Assembly: GCF_022827545.1 (NCBI RefSeq)
Contig: NZ_CP094669.1
Span: 2,942,001 to 3,006,000, forward strand
Reading direction: 5' to 3'
Length of the DNA: 64,000 nt
From: Hymenobacter tibetensis
Lineage (GTDB): Bacteria; Bacteroidota; Bacteroidia; Cytophagales; Hymenobacteraceae
Of this stretch, positions 50,834-61,202 are shown in pieces. Under the pieces are notes generated by a model, which did no database searches, was not told where the DNA came from, and worked only from the letters and a program-made list of their open reading frames with translations. The stretch's first letter is position 1, and each line of letters opens with the position of its first letter. The translations under genes were made by a program, and so were the position numbers.

Positions 50834-51547
50834 TTGCTTACCACTCTTACCTTATTCACGCTTCAGCCTAACCAGAAACGGTGGGGATTGGCTCAGATGG
50901 GCACTTCGCCGCCGCAGTTGCAAAAGGTATCCGGCCTGCGCTTTTTCAAGCTGGCGGGTAGTGGCAATGCCAACGGCTTCGGGCTCTGGCCGAATTTGCA
51001 CCGCTACGGCTTTATGGCGGTGTGGGACTCGGCAGCAGCAGCAGCAGCCTTTTTTCAGGAGCATGCCTTGTGGCAGGAATATCGTCAGCGCAGCGTTGAA
51101 ACCTGGACGCTGGATTTGGCACCGCTGAAGTCGCACGGCCTTTGGGATGGCACGAATCCGTTTGACTACGAAACGCTAGACTTAGCTCCCGCCGACGATG
51201 CCCCTGTAGCCGTACTAACCCGCGCTTCTATCCGGTGGCAGAAAACCTGGCGCTTCTGGCAATATGTAGCCCCCACTAGTGCGGCCGTAGCCCACGCCGA
51301 CGGTGTGCGGGCCGCCATTGGCCTTGGCGAGTTGCCCATCATTCGCCAAGCCACGTTCAGCGTGTGGGAATCAGCCCAAAAGATGCAGCAATACGCCTAC
51401 CGCGACGCCACTCACCGCGAAGTTATCAAGCTCACGCGTCAAGAAAAGTGGTACGGCGAGGAGCTATTCGCCCGCTTCCAAGTGCTGCGCAGCGAGGGCA
51501 CATTAGATGGCAAGAACCCGCTGGATATGCTGCAAGCAACAGTTTAA
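50834..51547 (+). CDS. Spheroidene monooxygenase (CrtA)-like protein, TTG start
   Basis: A 237-residue heme-binding-type CrtA family protein, a carotenoid ketolase or hydroxylase. Conserved parts are QMGTSPPQLQKVSGLRFFKL, GFGLWPNLHRYGFMAVWDS, VAVLTRASIRWQKTWRFW, GLGELPIIRQATFSVWES and ARFQVLRSEGTLDGKNPL. The first ATG in frame (at about 50897) would cut the conserved first strand (TTLTLFTLQ), so the TTG at 50834 is the more probable start. No other carotenoid gene is nearby. Its product may add keto groups to the pigment of a red or pink organism, which is inference. Confidence 0.85.
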   Translation: MLTTLTLFTLQPNQKRWGLAQMGTSPPQLQKVSGLRFFKLAGSGNANGFGLWPNLHRYGFMAVWDSAAAAAAFFQEHALWQEYRQRSVETWTLDLAPLKSHGLWDGTNPFDYETLDLAPADDAPVAVLTRASIRWQKTWRFWQYVAPTSAAVAHADGVRAAIGLGELPIIRQATFSVWESAQKMQQYAYRDATHREVIKLTRQEKWYGEELFARFQVLRSEGTLDGKNPLDMLQATV

Positions 51548-51573: not shown

Positions 51574-51820
51574 ACTAGAAGGTTAGTTCCCCTCCTTAGA
51601 TAAGGAGGGGTCAAGGGTGGTTGATATTTATTGAACGATCCATAAGAACGTCATGCAGAGCGCAGCGAAGCATCTCGCGTGCTGACGTTGCCATGCTAAC
51701 TCAACGATTCGAGCGAGATGCTTCGCTGCGCTCTGCATGACGTTCGAGATAAACAATGGTAAGTCCCCCCTAACCCCTCCTCATCTGAGACGGGGAACTA
51801 GACTTTAGCTCTAGAAAAGC
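51574..51820. repeat. M-family inverted pair flanking an R-family palindrome (copies M3 and R4)
   Basis: The left end CTAGAAGGTTAGTTCCCCTC, CTTAGATAAG, GGGGTCAAGGGTGGTTGAT and the right end AGTCCCCCCTAACCCCTCCT, CATCTGAG, GGGGAACTAG...CTCTAGAA are inverted copies of M. Compared with M1 the arms are turned outside-in. Between them at 51648-51743 is R4 (see next entry). The region 51548-52048 has no gene. Confidence 0.8.
51648..51743. repeat. R-family palindrome, perfect arms (copy R4)
   Basis: Two perfectly complementary 31-base arms, beginning ACGTCATGCAGAGCGCAGCG and ending CGCTGCGCTCTGCATGACGT, with a central 34-base spacer. Nearly identical arms occur in R6 (59242-59336). Confidence 0.88.
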
Positions 51821-51905: not shown

Positions 51906-51943
51906 CAAACACCTCCTGATGTTACATCAGGAGGTGTTTTTAT
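51906..51943. terminator. Terminator-like hairpin before the PspA-like gene
   Basis: AAACACCTCCTGAT, loop GTTAC, ATCAGGAGGTGTTT followed by TTATTTTAT; 14 bp perfect stem. It separates the upstream repeats from the envelope module. Confidence 0.82.
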
Positions 51944-52048: not shown

Positions 52049-53038
52049 ATGAACACGCTACTACCTACCGATCAACCGACCAGCTTGCCGAAGTGGCAGC
52101 AGCCCGAAAAAGTGGCCGGGTGGGTCTTTCTGGCTGGCCTTGTGGGGGCCGGCGTGTATAGCTGGGGCGTCATCGTGCCCTACCTCGTCGACATTGTGTT
52201 CGACACTGTGAAGCTTGGGATTGGGCTTGGGGTGCTGTTTGCCTTGTTTCTGCTGATTACCAACAAGCGGGTGAAGGCGGGGCTGTGGTACGCCGGGCAG
52301 CGCATCTTCCGCACGGCGGCGGGCATCTTCGTCAATACCGACCCCATCGGTATCATGGAGGACTACATCCGGAACACCGAGAAGGAGGCCCGCAACATGG
52401 AGGGTGAGGTCGGCCACATCGAAGGCGCCCACGAGCTGGTAAAGCGCAAGCTGACCGACAACCAGAACCAGATGCAGGAGTACCTAGCCTTGGCTGCCTC
52501 GGCCACCCGCCAGGGCGAAAAAGACGCCTCCGACAGCTACGCTTCCCGTGCCGCCCAACTCCAGGACTACAACCAGCGCCTCACGCCCATGCTCACCACC
52601 ACGGCCAACGTGAGCCTGGTAATGCGCCAGATCCTGAAAGCGGCTCTGCGCCAAATCGACAACAGCAAGTTCAAAGTCGGTTTGCTGAAAGACGAATACG
52701 CCCTGGTAAAGCGCACCAGCTCGGGCATGCGGGCCGCCATGAACATCCTGCGCGGAGACCCCGACAAGAAGTATTTCTTCGACCTCGCCACCGACCGGGT
52801 AGCCCAGGACATGGCCGCGCAGCTCGGCCAGATCAAGCAGGCCATGCGCTACTCGCAGGAGTTCGTCAAGGAAATGGACATCCAGAACGGCGTGATGAGC
52901 GAAAAAGGCCAGCGCCTGCTCGGCATGTATCAGAAAGGCGAGTTCAGCGCCATCATGGACGAAAAGCCCCAAGCCCCACAGTCACCCAACCAAATCCGCA
53001 GAGCCTCCAATGATGCCTATTCTAGCTTGCTTGACTAG
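52049..53038 (+). CDS. Membrane-anchored PspA/IM30-like coiled-coil protein
   Basis: A 329-residue protein. Two hydrophobic segments (about 24-46, VAGWVFLAGLVGAGVYSWGV, and about 52-72, LGIGLGVLFALFLLITN) come first. Then from DPIGIMEDYIRNTEKEARNM on follows a long, Gln/Glu/Lys/Ala-rich helical region to about residue 300 with SRAAQLQDYNQRLTPML and LLKDEYALVKRTSSGMRAAM. This helical order (PxxxMxxxIR start, then SYASRAAQL-like segment and a final basic helix) resembles PspA/Vipp1, which normally lack membrane segments. A membrane-tethered PspA-like role in envelope stress is inferred. ATG 52049 is preferred over GTG 52004. It is first of a run of genes reaching to 57060, the next gene overlapping by 29 bases. 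Confidence 0.65.
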   Translation: MNTLLPTDQPTSLPKWQQPEKVAGWVFLAGLVGAGVYSWGVIVPYLVDIVFDTVKLGIGLGVLFALFLLITNKRVKAGLWYAGQRIFRTAAGIFVNTDPIGIMEDYIRNTEKEARNMEGEVGHIEGAHELVKRKLTDNQNQMQEYLALAASATRQGEKDASDSYASRAAQLQDYNQRLTPMLTTTANVSLVMRQILKAALRQIDNSKFKVGLLKDEYALVKRTSSGMRAAMNILRGDPDKKYFFDLATDRVAQDMAAQLGQIKQAMRYSQEFVKEMDIQNGVMSEKGQRLLGMYQKGEFSAIMDEKPQAPQSPNQIRRASNDAYSSLLD

Positions 53039-53213
53039 CTTTTTGCTGATGACCCTGGTGCTAGCGGGCCTCAACACCTTCTTCCCCGCAGCGCCTCTCA
53101 GCCAGCTCCGCCCCGCGCCCACGGTAGCGCCTCACACGCCGCTTGTCTTCGCCATGCCGGCACCTAAAGCAGCTCTTGTAGCAGCGTGGCGCCCCACTTT
53201 TCCCCAATTCTAA
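53010..53213 (+). CDS. Possible small membrane peptide
   Basis: A 67-residue frame starting with an ATG-ATG inside the 3' end of the PspA-like gene. It encodes one hydrophobic segment (MMPILACLTSFLLMTLVLAG) and a Pro-rich tail. The overlap of 29 bases, same direction and 27-base gap to the next gene suit a coupled small gene, but base composition alone could also explain it. No family recognised. Confidence 0.4.
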   Translation: MMPILACLTSFLLMTLVLAGLNTFFPAAPLSQLRPAPTVAPHTPLVFAMPAPKAALVAAWRPTFPQF

Positions 53214-53240
53214 CTCCTGACTTCTAGCTTTTTCCATACC

Positions 53241-55022
53241 ATGACTACTCGCGGTAAAATTGTAATTGGCCTGCTCATCGTAGTGGCCCTCTATTTCGGC
53301 ATCAACAAAGTGGTTTCCAGTGGTGCCGTGTTCAAGAAAGCCGACACGCAGTCGGTGCTACTCAACTCCATTGAGCTGCCCATCGCCGCTGGTAGCGGCA
53401 ACCGGGCCAACATTGCGGTGCCACTGGCTGACCTGCCCGGCACCACGCCCACCGAAAAAGGCACGCCCATCACGTGGGAAGTAATGGCCTGGAACTCGCA
53501 AATGGCTGGTATGCTGGCCAACGGCGGCCCCCGCACCACCCAAGGCTCGGCCATGGCCGCCAACGGTGTTGACCTTCAGATTGTGCGCCAAGACGACGTA
53601 GCCAAAATGCAGGCCGACCTAGTGAAGAATGCCGCCGACCTCGACGCTAACCCTAGCACGCCCGGCCTGATTGTGAGCATCATGGGTGACGGACTGCCCG
53701 GCTTCTCGGCGGTGCAGGAGCAGCTCAAGAAAGTGGGCACGCAGCTCCAAATCATTCCCTACTCGGTGGGCAAATCGTTCGGCGAAGACAAGCTGATGGG
53801 CCCGAAAGAGTGGCTCGACAACCCCAAGCTGGCCGTGGGCAAAACCATTGCCTGCTACCTGCGCGACGGTGACCAGAACATTGCCCTGAAGTGGTGCGCC
53901 GACAACGGCCTCAAAGTCAACCCCGACGAAACCACCTACGACCCCGAAGCCGTGAACTTCATGTCGGCCTCTGACTTCCTGGTAGCTGCCGAAAAGTACA
54001 TCGTGGGCAAGCCTGAGCAGCGCACCAAAGTGGTAAACGGCAAAAATACCGGCGTGAAAATCGACGTGGTAGCCGATGCCGTAGCCACCTGGACGCCCGG
54101 CGACGTGAACATTGCCAAGCAGAAAGGCGGCCTGGTGAGCATCGTGTCCACCAAAGACTACTCCAACCAGATGCCCAACATTATGGTGACTACCAAGCGC
54201 TGGTACGACGCCCACCAGAAGGAAGTGGCTGGCCTGATGACCGCCTTCGCCGTAGCCGGCGACCAAGTGAAGTCGCACCCCGAGGCGCTGAAACGGGCCG
54301 CTGACATTTCGGCCGACGTGTACGCCGACAAAGACAAAAACGGCGCTTACTGGCTGAAGTATTACAAGGGCGTGAGCGAAGCCGACCGTACTGGCGAAGT
54401 GGTGGAACTCGGGGGCAGCAAGGCCTTCAACTTCGCCGACAACCTGGCCTTGTTCGGCCTCGAAGAAGGCGGCACCAACATCTACGCTTCTGTCTACAAA
54501 ACCTTCGGCGACGTGCAAAGCAAGCTCTACCCCAAGGAGTTGCCCAGCTACGTACCCCTCGACCAGATGCTGGACCTCAGCTTGCTAAAGAACATGCAAA
54601 CCCAGTACAAAGGCAAAGCCGTGGCCCCCGCCGACCAGCAGAAGTTTGCCGCCGACGATGAAATCCGCCGCAACGTGAGCAAGCGAGCCTGGAACATCGA
54701 GTTCAACACCGGCCAAAGCTCCTTCACGCCCGCCGCCGAGCAGCAGCTCAACCAACTCTTCGACGACCTGGTAGTGGCCGGCAACCTGAAAGTAGCCGTG
54801 CACGGCCACACCGACAACGTCGGCGACCCGCAAAAGAACCAGCAACTCTCCGAAGACCGCGCCATGTCCGTGCGCGAGTGGCTGCAACAGAAAAGCACCA
54901 GCGCCTTCCCCGAAGGCCGCGTGCAGGTCTACGCCCACGGCGCCACCGAGCCCGTCGAAAGCAACGCCACCCCCACCGGCAAAGCCAAAAACCGCCGGGT
55001 AGAAGTGGTATTGGGTAACTAA
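53241..55022 (+). CDS. Membrane-anchored solute-binding domain fused to OmpA domain
   Basis: A 593-residue fusion. A single membrane segment (about 7-24, IVIGLLIVVALYFGINKVV) anchors it. Residues about 60-455 resemble a periplasmic substrate-binding protein of NitT/TauT or phosphate type, with ITWEVMAWNSQMAGMLANGG, ADAVATWTPGDVNIAKQKGG and MPNIMVTTKRWYDAHQKEV. Residues about 475-593 are an OmpA-like peptidoglycan-binding domain; NIEFNTGQSSFTPAAEQQL, HGHTDNVGDPQKNQQLSEDRA and PTGKAKNRRVEVVLGN carry its conserved Asp and Arg. Known substrate-binding proteins are free or lipid-anchored, so an OmpA fusion is unusual. It is followed by a permease and an ATPase, so it is probably their receptor, also tied to the cell wall. 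Role beyond that is open. Confidence 0.82.
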   Translation: MTTRGKIVIGLLIVVALYFGINKVVSSGAVFKKADTQSVLLNSIELPIAAGSGNRANIAVPLADLPGTTPTEKGTPITWEVMAWNSQMAGMLANGGPRTTQGSAMAANGVDLQIVRQDDVAKMQADLVKNAADLDANPSTPGLIVSIMGDGLPGFSAVQEQLKKVGTQLQIIPYSVGKSFGEDKLMGPKEWLDNPKLAVGKTIACYLRDGDQNIALKWCADNGLKVNPDETTYDPEAVNFMSASDFLVAAEKYIVGKPEQRTKVVNGKNTGVKIDVVADAVATWTPGDVNIAKQKGGLVSIVSTKDYSNQMPNIMVTTKRWYDAHQKEVAGLMTAFAVAGDQVKSHPEALKRAADISADVYADKDKNGAYWLKYYKGVSEADRTGEVVELGGSKAFNFADNLALFGLEEGGTNIYASVYKTFGDVQSKLYPKELPSYVPLDQMLDLSLLKNMQTQYKGKAVAPADQQKFAADDEIRRNVSKRAWNIEFNTGQSSFTPAAEQQLNQLFDDLVVAGNLKVAVHGHTDNVGDPQKNQQLSEDRAMSVREWLQQKSTSAFPEGRVQVYAHGATEPVESNATPTGKAKNRRVEVVLGN

Positions 55023-55025
55023 GTG

Positions 55026-55194
55026 GACCTCACCCCCCCCCGTGGCTCCCCCTCTCCTCAGGGAGAGGGGAGCCACGGGGGCGCTAGCGCTGCATGAGTA
55101 CTTGTCCTATCTGATTCGCATAAACCATTCACATCTAAAAAGCCTTCGTCAGGCTCCCCCTCTCCCTGAGGAGAGGGGGCCGGGGGGTGAGGTT
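55026..55194. repeat. M-family inverted-end repeat between operon genes (copy M4)
   Basis: Left end GACCTCACCCCCCCCCGTGG, right end CCGGGGGGTGAGGTT; orientation as in M1. It also contains a strong hairpin, CCCCGTGGCTCCCC ... GGGGAGCCACGGGG (about 55036-55080). It fills the gap between the OmpA-fusion stop and the permease start exactly. Confidence 0.85.
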
Positions 55195-55199
55195 GACGT

Positions 55200-55976
55200 A
55201 TGAAAAATCTATTCATCCCGAATGCTCAGCCGCGTCAGTCGGTTTTCCTGACCATGGTGGCGTGTCAGGGGCTGGTGCTGTTGGTGCTGTGGCTGCTGTA
55301 TCCGCTCAAGCTGTTCCCAACGCTCGGCGAAGTGCTGACCGCCTTTCAGGACTTGGTGCGCACGCAGGGTTTGATTCAGGAGCTGTGGGCCAGCTTGGTA
55401 ACGGCCATTCAGGCAGTGGGTATAGCGACGGTGCTGGCCCTGTTCATCTCCTACCTCACGGCGCTGCCGTTCTTTCGGCCCCTGGCCTACGCCGCCACCA
55501 AGCTGCGCTACCTCACCCTCACGGGCCTCACGTTTTTCATGGCTCTCATGCTTAGCTCGGGTCACCAAGTGAAGCTGTCGGTGCTGGTGTTCGGGGCCAC
55601 GGTGTACTTCGTGACGGGCATGACCAGCGTGATTCTGACCACCACGCAAGAGGAAATGGACCACGCCCGCACCCTCGGCATGAGCGAGTGGCGCAGCTTT
55701 TTCGAGGTGATTGTGCTCGGCAAGCTCGATGATATGCTGGAAGTGGTCCGCCAGAACTTCGCCATCATCTGGACCATGATTACGCTGGTCGAGACGCTTT
55801 ACCAGTCGGAAGGCGGCATTGGGCTCCTGCTTTACAAGCAAAACCGCTACCTGCACCTGGCCGGCGTTGTGTCCATCCAACTGGTTATTCTGGCCGTGGG
55901 TGCGTTGCAAGACTACCTATTCGTACTCCTGCGCCGCGTGTTCTTCCCCTATTCAAGTCTTAGCACTGCGCGCTAA
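55200..55976 (+). CDS. ABC transporter permease, NitT/TauT-like
   Basis: A 258-residue inner-membrane permease with about six hydrophobic segments. The cytosolic EAA-type loop is recognisable as EEMDHARTLGMSEWRSFFEVIVLGKLDDM, where EAA is changed to DHA. It lies between the solute-binding/OmpA fusion and the ATPase, all in one direction. The closest known families are binding-protein-dependent permeases of the SsuC/TauC type. The start ATG at 55200 is six bases after the end of repeat M4, so translation depends on a leader containing that repeat. Confidence 0.85.
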   Translation: MKNLFIPNAQPRQSVFLTMVACQGLVLLVLWLLYPLKLFPTLGEVLTAFQDLVRTQGLIQELWASLVTAIQAVGIATVLALFISYLTALPFFRPLAYAATKLRYLTLTGLTFFMALMLSSGHQVKLSVLVFGATVYFVTGMTSVILTTTQEEMDHARTLGMSEWRSFFEVIVLGKLDDMLEVVRQNFAIIWTMITLVETLYQSEGGIGLLLYKQNRYLHLAGVVSIQLVILAVGALQDYLFVLLRRVFFPYSSLSTAR

Positions 55977-56025
55977 AACGGCAGTAAAGCCCCCTTATTA
56001 ACGTCCGCATTTGCGTATCCTTTCT

Positions 56026-56135
56026 CCATCTGTCATCCTGAGCTTGTGAAGGACCTTCTCACAATAAAACGGCAGGCAATGCAATGTCTCGTTCGGCGGG
56101 CATAAGGTCCTTCGCAAGCTCAGGATGACAGATGG
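56026..56135. repeat. R-family palindromic repeat (copy R5)
   Basis: Arms CCATCTGTCATCCTGAGCTT...GTGAAGGACCTT and AAGGTCCTTCGCAAGCTCAG...GATGACAGATGG pair over 32 bases with one mismatch. It lies between the permease and ATPase genes; an ATG at 56125 is inside its right arm. Confidence 0.88.
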
Positions 56136-56163
56136 GAATTGGATAGACAGAAAAGGATGGCCA

Positions 56164-57060
56164 ATGAAGTTCAGCATGATGCTCTTTTCTCACAGACTCA
56201 CCCCTCACCACTTCACAAATTCACCACTCGTGACTCCTCTACCCTACAACTACAAAGAACCGGTCCTCACGCTGCAAGGCGTATCGATGACGTTCAACGG
56301 GGAAGTTGTTCTGCGCGACATCAATGCACAGGTCCTTGACGTGACCCGGCCGGGCATGAACCAGGGGCAGGTCGTGGGGTTCTACGGCCGCTCCGGCATC
56401 GGCAAATCGGTGCTGTGCCGCATCATGGCCGGGCTGCTGGCCCCGAGCAGCGGCACGGTGCACGTGGGCGTCGAGCAGTTGCCGGTGCAGCCGGGCATGG
56501 TGGGACTCGTGCAGCAGCGCTACCCCCTCTTCGACCACCGCACCCTCCACGACAACCTGCTGGTGGCCGCCCTCCGCAAACACGCCCCCGACGAGGCGCA
56601 GCGCCAAGTAACTTCCTACCTCGACCGGTTTTGCCTCACGCCGCACCGCAAGAAGTACCCGGCGCACCTCTCCGGCGGCCAACGCCAGCGCGCCGCCATT
56701 GCCCAACAACTGCTCTGCTCCGAGCACCTCATCCTGCTCGACGAGCCCTTCTCCGGTCTCGACGTGGCCATGATCGACGAGGTCAAGAAAATCATCCTCG
56801 AAGTCACGACCATGGACGAGCTCAACACCGTCGTCATCGTCTCCCACGATATTGCCACCACCACCGCCCTCGCCGACCGGCTGTGGCTGCTCGGCTACGA
56901 GCGTGACGCCACCGGCCAGCTCATCCCCGGCGCTACCATCACCCAACAGCACCAATACAACCTCGCCGAAATGGGTTTAGCCTGGCACAAAAACGTGGAA
57001 GCCGAACCCGAATTCGCGCAGTTCGTGGAGGAGATTAAGAGCGAGATTCGGGGGAGTTAA
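56164..57060 (+). CDS. ABC transporter ATP-binding protein
   Basis: An ATPase of about 298 residues. Walker A is GRSGIGKSVLCRI, Q-loop VGLVQQRYPLFDH, signature LSGGQRQRAAIAQQL, Walker B LILLDEPFSGLD, and switch His in IVSHDIATTTAL. It is complete and of NitT/TauT type with an extended C-terminus (RLWLLGYERDATGQ...EEIKSEIRGS). Three starts are possible: ATG 56125 (inside palindrome R5, judged unlikely), ATG 56164 and GTG 56228; the conserved part starts only at KEPVLTLQGV. It is the last gene of the envelope module. Its stop overlaps by four bases the end of the convergent HEAT-like gene. Confidence 0.9.
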   Translation: MKFSMMLFSHRLTPHHFTNSPLVTPLPYNYKEPVLTLQGVSMTFNGEVVLRDINAQVLDVTRPGMNQGQVVGFYGRSGIGKSVLCRIMAGLLAPSSGTVHVGVEQLPVQPGMVGLVQQRYPLFDHRTLHDNLLVAALRKHAPDEAQRQVTSYLDRFCLTPHRKKYPAHLSGGQRQRAAIAQQLLCSEHLILLDEPFSGLDVAMIDEVKKIILEVTTMDELNTVVIVSHDIATTTALADRLWLLGYERDATGQLIPGATITQQHQYNLAEMGLAWHKNVEAEPEFAQFVEEIKSEIRGS

Positions 57061-57752: not shown

Positions 57753-57848
57753 AATAATGCGTCACTCTTTATCAGGATCAGCTTGCATTGCTGACCTGCC
57801 GCAGTCTGACGTTCTTTGAGTGCCCAATTCATCCTTCCTCTCCACAAA

Positions 57849-59210
57849 ATGCCCTCCGGAACACTCCTACTCATTGACGACGAACCGCGCTTGCGCCAAC
57901 TCTTGGCGCGGGTCTTGGAACTGGAAGGCTACACGATTCTGCAAGCCCCCGACGCCCGGCGCGGCCTGGAACTGCTGGAACAACACGCCGCCGACGTGCT
58001 GGTAGTAGTGTCCGATGTGAAGCTGCCCGATGCCAACGGCGTGGAGCTGCTGCCCCGCCTCAAGGCCAAAGCGCCCGACATGGAAGTGATACTGCTCACC
58101 GCCTTCGGCACCATTCCCGATGGTGTGAAGGCCATGAAGCAGGGCGCCTTCGACTACCTCACCAAAGGCGACTTCGAGCAGCAACTAGTAGTAGTAGTAG
58201 ATCGGGCCGCCGAAAAAGCGCGCCTGCGCCGCCGGGTGGCCGAATTGGAGCGCAAAATGGGTCAGCGGCACAGCTTCAGCTCCATGATTGGCTCGTCGGG
58301 GGCGCTGCGGCGGGCCCAAACCATGGGCGAGCAAGTGGCAGTGACGGATAGCACCGTGCTGCTGGAAGGACCCACGGGTTCGGGCAAGGAGCTGTTTGCG
58401 CAAGCCATCCACGAGGCGAGTCCGCGCCGGTCGAAGGCCTTTGTGGCGGTGAATTGCAGCGCGTTTCCGCGGGAGTTGCTGGAATCCGAGCTGTTTGGAT
58501 ACAAGAAAGGCGCCTTTACGGGGGCGCTGGCCGACAAGAAAGGCTTGCTGGAAGAAGCCAACGGCGGCACCTTGTTTCTCGATGAAATCGGGGAATTGGA
58601 GCTGAACGTGCAAGCCAAGTTCCTCCGGGTGCTGGAGTTGCAGCAGTTCACCAAGCTCGGCGACACCAAGCCCACCAACGTGAACGTGCGCCTGGTAGCA
58701 GCCACCAACCGCAACCTCAAGCAGGAAGCCGCCGAAGGCCGTTTCCGCCCCGATTTGTACTACCGGCTCTCGGTGTTCACCATCAACGTGCCGCCGCTCA
58801 AAGACCGGCCCACCGACGTGCCCGCCCTGGCCGAATACTTCCTCCAATACTTCGCCGCCAAGCTCTGCAAGCGCCTCCCCGGTCTCGATGTGGAATGCCT
58901 ACGCCTGCTCCAACAGTATCCCTGGCCCGGCAATGTGCGCGAGCTGAAAAACGTGCTGGAACGCGCCGCCATTCTCGCACCCGCCGACCAGCCCCTGGCC
59001 GCTGCCTACCTCCCCGACGAGTTTCACGCCCCGCCCGCCCCGCTCAGTTTCACCGATGCCAGCCCCGACGACAATAGCCTCCGCACCGTGGAAGCCCGCC
59101 ACATTCAACTGCTGCTTCACCGCACTCAAGGCAACAAAACCGAAGCCGCCCGCCAGCTCGGCATCGGCCTAACCACGCTTTACCGCAAAGTGCAGGAATA
59201 CGGCCTGTAG
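57849..59210 (+). CDS. NtrC-family sigma54-dependent response regulator
   Basis: A 453-residue response regulator. Receiver domain at residues 1-120 with phospho-acceptor Asp56 (VVVSDVKLPD) and TAFGTIPDGVKAM; AAA+ domain from about 145 with Walker A GPTGSGKE (174-181), GAFTGA at 221-226 (sigma54 contact) and Walker B GGTLFLDEIGEL; Fis-type DNA-binding helix-turn-helix at the end, NKTEAARQLGIGLTTLYRKV. All functional motifs are intact, so it should activate sigma54 promoters. Start ATG 57849 leaves the receiver domain complete. The HK at 59421 is the natural partner. Target promoters are not identified. Confidence 0.95.
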   Translation: MPSGTLLLIDDEPRLRQLLARVLELEGYTILQAPDARRGLELLEQHAADVLVVVSDVKLPDANGVELLPRLKAKAPDMEVILLTAFGTIPDGVKAMKQGAFDYLTKGDFEQQLVVVVDRAAEKARLRRRVAELERKMGQRHSFSSMIGSSGALRRAQTMGEQVAVTDSTVLLEGPTGSGKELFAQAIHEASPRRSKAFVAVNCSAFPRELLESELFGYKKGAFTGALADKKGLLEEANGGTLFLDEIGELELNVQAKFLRVLELQQFTKLGDTKPTNVNVRLVAATNRNLKQEAAEGRFRPDLYYRLSVFTINVPPLKDRPTDVPALAEYFLQYFAAKLCKRLPGLDVECLRLLQQYPWPGNVRELKNVLERAAILAPADQPLAAAYLPDEFHAPPAPLSFTDASPDDNSLRTVEARHIQLLLHRTQGNKTEAARQLGIGLTTLYRKVQEYGL

Positions 59211-59241: not shown

Positions 59242-59336
59242 TGTCATGCAGAGCGCAGCGAAGCATCTCACTTGCTGATGTTGCAATGCTAATCCAGTGT
59301 TAGCACGCGAGATGCTTCGCTGCGCTCTGCATGACG
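59242..59336. repeat. R-family palindrome, perfect arms (copy R6)
   Basis: Arms from GTCATGCAGAGCGCAGCGAA to its complement TTCGCTGCGCTCTGCATGAC match over 27 bases including the CATCTC/GAGATG end. Nearly identical arms to R4. It lies between regulator and kinase genes; an ATG at 59331 is inside the right end. Confidence 0.88.
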
Positions 59337-59420
59337 CGCTTTTGGTTGACGTGTGCGTGTTTACCGCCAGTTGGTAGCAGCGCTTCAGTTGGCCACGTCT
59401 TGGTGTTACTTTTCCATTCC

Positions 59421-61202
59421 ATGACCTTAAAAACCAAAATCCGCCTGAGCATTCTGACCATGTTGGTGTTGCTGCTGGCGTTGGGCGGGTATGCGTTTCA
59501 AACCATTCAGCGACTGGAAGGCGGCGCACGCGGCATACAGTTGGCCAACTTCAACTCTGTGGAGTATGGCCTCCAGATGCTGCGAGCCGTGGAACAGTTG
59601 GAACAGGAGCCAACGGCGGCCGCCCCGCTAGAGCAGTTTCGGCGAGCCCTCACGCGCGAAGCAGCCAATATCACCGAACGGGGCGAACTAGAGCTAGTAG
59701 ACACGCTCACCCAACACCTAGCGGATTATCAGACCCTAGTGGATGAGCAGGCTCCACTGGCGCAACAGCAGCTCAAGCTGCGTCAGTTGCAAGCCGAGAT
59801 TCACCGCGTCGTTGACCTCAATACCGTCTCCTTTAACGCCAAAACGCAATCTGCTACCACCAACGCCGCCCGCGCCCGGCAAATGGTCTTGATTTTCATT
59901 AGCCTGAGTGCCGCTATTGGCTTGGTGCTAATCGTACGGCTGCCGCGGGAAGTGCTGCGCCCCCTGCGCCGCCTCACTGCCGACGTGGAAGATGTAGCCA
60001 GCCCCGGCCCCACCCACCTCGTGCCCATTGCCAAAAACGACGAAGTAGGTGCCGTAGCCTTGGCCCTGAACCGAGCGTTCGGCTACATGCAAGACCAGCG
60101 CAGCGCCACCCGCATAGCCTTAGCCACCGAGCGCAACCGCCTGGAAAGCCTGGTCGAGCACCTCGACGAAGGCTTGCTGCTGCTGGATGAAAGCGGCTGC
60201 GTACTACTGGCCAACCCCACCGCCCGCCGCCTGCTCGACCGGTCCGCCGCCGACTTGGTTGGGCACAAAGCCGAGGATCTTAGCCGCGAATCGGAACTGC
60301 TGCATACGCTGTTTCAGCCGCTGCTCGAACCAATTGCTAAACCTGCCGATGGCAGCGCGCAACCGCCGCTGCTCACGTTCCGGCAGCACGGAGAGGAAGT
60401 GTACTACCGGCTCACGGCCAGCCATATCGTGTCGTTCAACAAAGAATTGCGACAAACTGAATTTGCGGGGCACATCTTGTCGTTGCGCAACGTGTCGGAG
60501 TTTAAGAAGCTAGACGAAATCAAATCCAACTTCTTAGCCACGGTGTCGCACGAGCTGAAAACGCCGCTGGCCAGCATCAACCTCAGCCTGATGCTGTTGC
60601 AAGACGAACGCACCGACCCCGAAGAACGCCTGCGCATCGCCGACGGCATCCGGGAGGAAACCACCCGCTTGCTGGGCATGGTGGGGCAGCTCATCGACGT
60701 TTCGCGGCTCGATGCTGGCGCCGGTATCAAGCTCGATGTACGCTCCGTAGCACTAGCCGACGTGGTGGAATACGCCGTGGACACGGTGCAGCCGCAGCTC
60801 CAAGACAAGGAACTGTGCCTGGAAACCAACCTGCCGCCCACCCTGCCCGCCGCCCGCGCCGACCTCGAAAAAACTACGTGGGTACTCATCAACCTGCTCG
60901 CCAACGCCATCCGCTACTCGCCCCGCGGTGCCCGCCTGACGGTGCAAGCCACTCAACTACCCGGCCACGAACTACAAGTGAGCGTGCAGGACTACGGTCC
61001 CGGCATCCCGGCAGAGTACCACGAGCGGATCTTCCAGCGCTTCGCCGAAGTACCCAACCCCGCCGGCCACAAAGGCGGCTCCGGCCTCGGCCTAAGCATC
61101 TCCCGCGAGTTCATCAGCACCCAAGGCGGCCGCCTGTGGGTGGAAAGCGCCCCCGGCACCGGCAGCCGCTTTTTGTTCACGCTCCCTGCAGAAAGCAACT
61201 GA
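59421..61202 (+). CDS. Sensor histidine kinase (HAMP-PAS-HisKA-HATPase)
   Basis: A 593-residue membrane sensor kinase. One membrane segment (about 8-27, IRLSILTMLVLLLALGGYAF) and a second at about 160-180 (VLIFISLSAAIGLVLIV) bracket a roughly 130-residue periplasmic helical region. Then HAMP (about 180-235), PAS (about 245-355), HisKA with phospho-acceptor His377 in TVSHELKTPLAS, and HATPase with N box LLANAIRYSP, G1 DYGPGIP and G2 GGSGLGLSI. It lies about 210 bases after the NtrC-type regulator, with repeat R6 in between, and is probably its partner. The start ATG 59421 is supported by the membrane segment; an open frame to 59331 enters the repeat. Confidence 0.95.
   Translation: MTLKTKIRLSILTMLVLLLALGGYAFQTIQRLEGGARGIQLANFNSVEYGLQMLRAVEQLEQEPTAAAPLEQFRRALTREAANITERGELELVDTLTQHLADYQTLVDEQAPLAQQQLKLRQLQAEIHRVVDLNTVSFNAKTQSATTNAARARQMVLIFISLSAAIGLVLIVRLPREVLRPLRRLTADVEDVASPGPTHLVPIAKNDEVGAVALALNRAFGYMQDQRSATRIALATERNRLESLVEHLDEGLLLLDESGCVLLANPTARRLLDRSAADLVGHKAEDLSRESELLHTLFQPLLEPIAKPADGSAQPPLLTFRQHGEEVYYRLTASHIVSFNKELRQTEFAGHILSLRNVSEFKKLDEIKSNFLATVSHELKTPLASINLSLMLLQDERTDPEERLRIADGIREETTRLLGMVGQLIDVSRLDAGAGIKLDVRSVALADVVEYAVDTVQPQLQDKELCLETNLPPTLPAARADLEKTTWVLINLLANAIRYSPRGARLTVQATQLPGHELQVSVQDYGPGIPAEYHERIFQRFAEVPNPAGHKGGSGLGLSISREFISTQGGRLWVESAPGTGSRFLFTLPAESN

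Follow-up and report, generated by a model that had tools for sequence, protein, structure and literature searches.

A candidate envelope system in Hymenobacter that pairs a PspA-like membrane protein with a wall-anchored importer, and its counterparts in huge phages

A stretch of 64,000 nucleotides from Hymenobacter tibetensis (assembly GCF_022827545.1, contig NZ_CP094669.1, positions 2,942,001 to 3,006,000; the window) carries four genes, here called A, B, C, and D, that encode a PspA-like transmembrane (TM) protein, a binding protein with a TM anchor and a peptidoglycan-binding domain, and the permease and ATPase of an ATP-binding cassette (ABC) transporter. An earlier sequence-only reading of the window had proposed a run of four to five genes here, four of which (A to D) are upheld. 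Their features, in window coordinates, are as follows.

52049..53038, forward strand: gene A, 329 amino acids, two-TM, PspA/ESCRT-III-like helical protein (PF04012, 28.6 bits; model and fold search)
52121..52264, forward strand: TM hairpin of A, residues 25-72 (hydropathy)
52340..52345, forward strand: Asp-Pro motif of A, residues 98-99, where the PspA-like hairpin begins (alignment)
52343..52741, forward strand: long helical hairpin of A, residues 99-231, aligned with a1-a3 of VIPP1
53241..55022, forward strand: gene B, 593 amino acids, TM anchor, binding-protein domain, and OmpA peptidoglycan domain
53454..54620, forward strand: TauA/CmpA/NrtA-type solute-binding domain of B, residues about 72-460
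54672..55016, forward strand: OmpA-like peptidoglycan-binding domain of B, residues 478-592, with D525 and R540
55200..55976, forward strand: gene C, 258 amino acids, ABC permease, nearest to SsuC/CmpB (PF00528; NCBIfam SsuC; CmpB)
56230..57060, forward strand: gene D, 276 amino acids, ABC ATPase, start probably here and not at 56125 (PF00005; GTG translation; motifs)

Genes A and B are inherited together, and with them a third gene that the window does not contain. Among 101 genomes of the genus, 71 were positive for B (E<=1e-60) and 76 for A-like proteins (E<=1e-30). By reading of the genome lists, not by script, all 71 B genomes fall within the 76, each with a close A, and the same 71 also have F1, a coiled-coil protein of 195-243 amino acids without a TM segment that is conserved directly upstream of A in distant loci. 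The other five A-like genomes (G397, G410, G430, G466, and G479) hold only a paralog of about 33% identity. A profile search found F1 in 77 of the 101 genomes: the 71 with B, the five with the A paralog only, and G490.

Gene order is equally regular. We kept 80 of 287 bacterial loci for synteny, nearly all from Hymenobacter, so bacterial diversity is under-sampled in this set. Counting loci with enough sequence, A precedes B on the same strand in 71 of 73, C follows B in 73 of 76, and D does so in 70 of 72. C is missing at L029, L030, and L070, and D at L029 and L070. A is missing at L091 and L094, two metagenome-assembled genomes of Chitinophagales with B-C-D but neither A nor F1 alongside, whose neighbors are, by eye, metabolic enzymes. 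Apart from these two exceptions, the co-occurrence of the set in other genomes that the sequence-only reading called for is borne out. Some genomes carry two copies of the cluster.

F1 adjoins A in 58 of the 70 loci with enough sequence. That of H. tibetensis (G000:C1:1516878-1517516, E=6.7e-17) lies outside the window, 1.48 Mb from A; the four closest genomes (G403, G417, G448, and G456) likewise have F1 apart from A, and the two are not adjacent at loci L015 to L017, of which L017 represents the cluster in the H. norwichensis type strain. Thus, the partner has become separated in this clade and is invisible from the window alone. Elsewhere in Hymenobacter, at L120 to L125, F1 stands upstream of A', the paralog of about 33% identity, without B, C, and D. 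Some of these loci (among L120, L122, and L124, also L121, L123, and L125) add F10, a TM-anchored Ppx/GppA-like protein, giving F1-A'-F10 sets that likewise lack B, C, and D. At L092 (Xanthocytophaga), the Ppx/GppA-like F10 lies between A and B.

AAA+ genes directly follow D in three bacterial loci from another genus of the class (L117 to L119) and in four phage-like contigs (L100 to L102 and L104). Within the window, a Pfam scan of nine proteins between 50834 and 61202 found an AAA domain only in an NtrC-type regulator.

The resemblance of A to PspA/IM30 proteins is weak by sequence and first-ranked by predicted fold. Residues 98-214 match positions 23-139 of the PspA_IM30 profile (PF04012, E=1.3e-6), and the score of 28.6 bits is under the curated cut-off of 33.9. 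The family is carried by 110 of the 120 close relatives of A listed; most of the distant relatives score nothing for it in Pfam scans. Across 20 aligned rows, P99 is invariant (20/20) and D98 is kept in at least 90%. A Foldseek search with the predicted model of A placed VIPP1 chains at ranks 1-7 (E 4e-3 to 2e-2), with residues 88-231 on VIPP1 14-157, the same register as the Pfam match; the model thus contains the a1-a3 helical hairpin of PspA/IM30. The PspA/IM30 family is further defined by an N-terminal amphipathic helix, a0, that binds the membrane, and in A two hydrophobic stretches (residues 25-44 and 46-72 by hydropathy) stand there instead.

Aligned by hhalign against the genome's own PspA as a single-sequence template, A reached probabilities of 1.3% and 1.1%, versus 0.7% for F1 as a control profile, and a sequence search of the PDB with an E limit of 1 found nothing for A. 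The two TM stretches and PspA-like region of the sequence-only reading are present, the latter below its family threshold; the PspA/IM30 similarity is seen in the Pfam match and the fold search, and not in most of the distant relatives or in this single-template hhalign comparison. A TelA/XpaC-like identity was also considered and dropped, as Pfam and NCBIfam hold no such match for A and the literature search returned nothing. The C-termini of A (53012-53035 in the window) and its relatives end, beyond a flexible tail, in a short hydrophobic motif that resembles the docking peptides of ESCRT-III proteins. The canonical PspA gene of this genome (L138, 6478-7182) is followed by what appear by eye to be membrane-protein and flotillin genes.

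Gene B has the architecture that the sequence-only reading had described, a TM-anchored solute-binding domain joined to an OmpA domain. A TM helix (residues 3-27) precedes a type II binding-protein fold (about 72-460), assigned to the TauA/NrtA class by fold comparison, and an OmpA domain (478-592; PF00691, E=1.2e-19). D525 and R540, which correspond to the Asp/Arg pair that contacts diaminopimelate of peptidoglycan in OmpA structures, are invariant in 23 alignment rows. T283, W284, P286, and D288 are invariant in the same number of rows; therefore, the presumed cleft motif of B appears to be under selection. We infer that B binds a ligand and takes part in its transport. The small-solute fold lends no support to the lipid transfer that had been suggested as one function. 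In a viral structure library, no full-length match to B was found, and the best rows span the OmpA part only.

The permease and ATPase assignments also stand, the latter with a new start. C matches PF00528 (BPD_transp_1) at 22.4 bits, under the curated cut-off of 26.4; gp243 of Bacillus phage G, for comparison, scores 83.4 bits. The nearest family of C is SsuC (NCBIfam, 2.8e-7), and its sole PDB match by sequence is CmpB (0.019). D (PF00005, 1.4e-24) holds conserved Walker A, LSGGQ, Walker B, and H-loop histidine motifs and is, judging by these, a catalytically intact ATPase. The start first assigned to it, 56125, falls within an inverted repeat (arms 56016-56057 and 56104-56145), while a GTG at 56230 gives 276 amino acids, a length matched in several relatives, and is probably the true start. 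By sequence, the nearest relatives of C and D are TauT/NitT-class importers.

In the phylum sample, a single-sequence query at E<=1e-40 detected B in 8 of 395 genomes; in the order sample, a profile at E<=1e-60 detected it in 35 of 291 genomes and 8 of 115 genera. B is also present in 12 of 150 genomes of the genus of G084. The order F1-A-B-C-D also occurs in other Bacteroidota.

The same gene set is present in huge phages. IMG/VR holds 21 loci related to B, of which we set aside L095 (Hymenobacter DNA, 85% identical to the window's B), L103 (5.5 kb), and L112 (a near-copy of L111). Sixteen of the remaining 18, which are viral by the collection's own label, have F1-A-B-C-D in this order on one strand, with D in two frames in L115; in L104 and L107 the cassette is cut by the contig end. 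Four of five neighboring proteins tested on these contigs match PHROGs. Named phage records give firmer evidence than these contigs: tblastn located B in 15 Prevotella Lak phages, a 735-kb phage (LR756501 and LR756503), Bacillus phage G, LR756500 (462 kb), LR756511 (595 kb, 43% coverage), and MT835556. Profile searches of the regions from LR756500, LR756501, Lak-C1, and Lak-B1 recovered all five genes in the same order and strand in each (4/4), which suggests that the five, kept by a virus, are sufficient as a unit. In L127, L128, L129, L132, and L096 to L115, other genes are sometimes inserted between the members.

Other phages hold partial sets. LR756511 has two B genes plus C and D, and MT835556 has C, B, and weak matches to F1 and A. 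In phage G, whose host is Gram-positive (L130, gp243-gp250), profile searches recover C (gp243), D (gp245), and two tandem B genes (gp249 and gp250). F1 and A were not found there by profile: hmmsearch at E 0.5 picks neither gp246, a coiled coil, nor gp247, with one TM and a coiled coil, which occupy the F1 and A positions. Comparisons of these two with F1 and A by hhalign gave 0.4%, 2.1%, and 1.2%, and we claim no homology for them, only agreement in position and architecture.

Phage and bacterial B proteins do not form separate groups. In a tree of 41 B proteins, which contains long branches that meet and under-samples bacterial diversity, the two are mixed, and well-supported branches force at least three changes of label. 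B has probably passed between phages and bacteria, in one direction or the other.

The surroundings of the cluster in the window add several features.

51907..51939, forward strand: perfect inverted repeat with a T-rich run just upstream of A (arms 51907-51922 and 51924-51939)
53010..53213, forward strand: open frame of 67 amino acids overlapping the 3' end of A, not a conserved member
57816..59210, forward strand: response regulator of NtrC type, frequently linked with the cluster in this genus (Pfam; neighborhood comparison)
59331..61202, forward strand: sensor histidine kinase, likewise frequently linked with the cluster in this genus (Pfam; neighborhood comparison)

The 67-residue frame had been proposed as a fifth gene encoding a tiny TM peptide. 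It matches only the closest relatives, L015, L016, and L017 (23, 109, and 89 bits), and we dropped it. The arms of the repeat upstream of A are 100% complementary with 1-nucleotide spacing, and the repeat is likely the intrinsic terminator of the upstream unit. The four genes are not closely spaced: inverted repeats occupy the gaps before A (51646-51745), between B and C (55048-55179), and between C and D (56016-56145), and at L016 a comparable long repeat is inserted between A and B. These long repeats look like small palindromic repeat elements. In the position that F1 holds in relatives, the window has a CrtA (spheroidene monooxygenase)-like protein (50834-51547; 210 bits, under the curated cut-off of 300).

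The regulator and kinase, being often linked to the cluster, are candidate associates only. In several relatives (L025, L034, L047, L048, and L057), the two flank the cluster, with the regulator gene before A and the kinase gene after D. Neither accompanies the tightly packed second copies of the cluster (e.g., L021, L035, and L040). Because the downstream regulator is of NtrC type, we scanned the window for the sigma-54 promoter consensus. With up to two mismatches there were 32 matches against 47 expected, and none just upstream of A, which gives no support to a sigma-54 promoter for the cluster.

We favor, with a probability of roughly 0.4, a reading in which A, B, C, D, and the unlinked F1 make up a single envelope system. 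This would be a TauT-class importer secured to both inner membrane and wall, with an ESCRT-III-like anchor as its scaffold, and would serve envelope maintenance. B would catch a small periplasmic solute while fixed to the wall and pass it to C, with D powering import; held by both inner membrane and wall, this receptor would be unable to diffuse. A may polymerize or cluster on the cytosolic face of the inner membrane and perhaps remodel it in ESCRT-III style, permanently anchored by a TM hairpin that would replace the reversible helix a0 of PspA, and F1 would be its soluble coiled-coil partner. Together, A and F1 might keep the transporter at membrane that is stressed or coupled to the wall. 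Uptake, perhaps of a precursor or a protective solute, would then be placed or switched where the membrane is strained and would serve envelope maintenance. We prefer this reading because F1, A, and B are co-inherited in the same 71 of 101 genomes; because F1-A-B-C-D order recurs in other Bacteroidota and in huge phages; because of the fold of B and the conservation of its D525/R540 pair, its presumed cleft motif, and the ATPase motifs; because VIPP1 tops the fold search with A, in the register of the Pfam match; because AAA+ genes follow D in some loci, as they do in ESCRT-III pairs; and because Ravi et al. (2024; PMC11237479) propose a similar link in the passages that describe such operons. 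The coupling of uptake to envelope integrity that the sequence-only reading put forward may be right, and had already been proposed in that paper.

The double attachment of B, through its membrane helix and its OmpA domain, is awkward for a shuttling receptor and would suit a machine in the style of FtsEX, in which D and C, changing shape with ATP, would work on the wall by way of B; A would be the scaffold at the cytosolic side of the membrane, and the binding domain a sensor or lever and not an uptake receptor. Retention of the whole set by huge phages is also easier to understand as envelope control than as nutrition. However, fold and sequence place B and C among the TauT/NitT importers and not in the FtsX/MacB class, and the presumed ligand motif of B is conserved; we consider such a force-generating or wall-gap device unlikely. 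A similarly low standing goes to an ordinary TauT-class importer whose receptor is wall-anchored by chance, with A and F1 as a separate, co-regulated membrane-stabilizing pair and no physical coupling. The halves are separable, as seen in the F1-A' loci of Hymenobacter without adjoining B, C, and D (L120 to L125), in B-C-D without A or F1 (L091 and L094), and in the relocation of F1 in the window's own clade. Yet presence and absence match over 101 genomes (71/71), and the same order is found in huge phages that share little else.

The intermingling of phage and bacterial B proteins could also reflect a superinfection or defense device that guards the envelope against other phages and is for that reason exchanged. 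PADLOC matches are generic only, however (ZorB for the OmpA part of B, ATPase models for D, and IetA for an AAA+ protein on the Flavobacteria side), and do not make up a defense system by composition, which leaves this explanation improbable. The favored reading, one envelope system, can be pushed further. F1-A-B-C-D might be a self-contained, exchangeable machine of Bacteroidota and huge phages, in which a membrane-anchored ESCRT-III-like polymer is joined mechanically to peptidoglycan via a wall-gripping ABC importer, and which phages use to keep the host inner membrane sealed and energized through a long infection; we regard this extension as speculative and rather doubtful.

The cluster offers a sharp, testable case of a bacterial ESCRT-III-like protein tied to partners, with a set fixed by co-inheritance over many genomes and including a receptor that bridges inner membrane and wall. 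Its presence in phages of up to 735 kb, and partly in the cultured Bacillus phage G, suggests that these viruses tend the envelope of their hosts, and provides a system for laboratory work. F1 exemplifies how a key partner can be overlooked in a single window, having moved 1.48 Mb in this clade.

The gene combination itself is already published. In the passages concerned, Ravi et al. (2024; mSystems, PMC11237479) describe operons with TM-bearing PspA/Snf7 homologs, AAA+, an ABC ATPase, a permease, and PBPB-OmpA, and suggest a link between membrane remodeling and solute transport. The window shares with that operon the ABC ATPase, the permease, the PBPB-OmpA protein, and a TM-bearing PspA/Snf7-like A; it differs in that no AAA+ gene of that kind lies beside the window genes and F1 is unlinked. 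The terms "bacteriophage," "phage genome," and "viruses" do not occur in the main text of that paper, and literature searches together with term look-ups in jumbo-phage papers, which did not extend to subscription papers and supplements, gave no report of the F1-A-B-C-D set in phages. We found no published account of the set in huge phages, nor of B, C, and D in Bacillus phage G. The terD/pspA-like operon of the Jug phage (preprint PMC12363816) offers another huge Bacteroidota phage with a pspA-like gene, which is transcribed and has terD as its neighbor; the relevant passages name no transporter, OmpA, or permease.

With PspA/IM30/Vipp1, the bacterial ESCRT-III proteins, A shares an a1-a3-like hairpin in register with Asp-Pro at its start, whereas it has a two-TM hairpin in place of a0, scores below the Pfam cut-off, and has distant relatives of which most score nothing. 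With the TauT/NitT importers (TauABC, SsuABC, NrtABCD, and CmpABCD), the cluster shares the fold of its binding domain and the nearest relatives of its permease and ATPase. It differs from them in that B carries a TM anchor and a fused OmpA wall-binding domain, has a binding part of about 390 residues, and is paired with A and F1.
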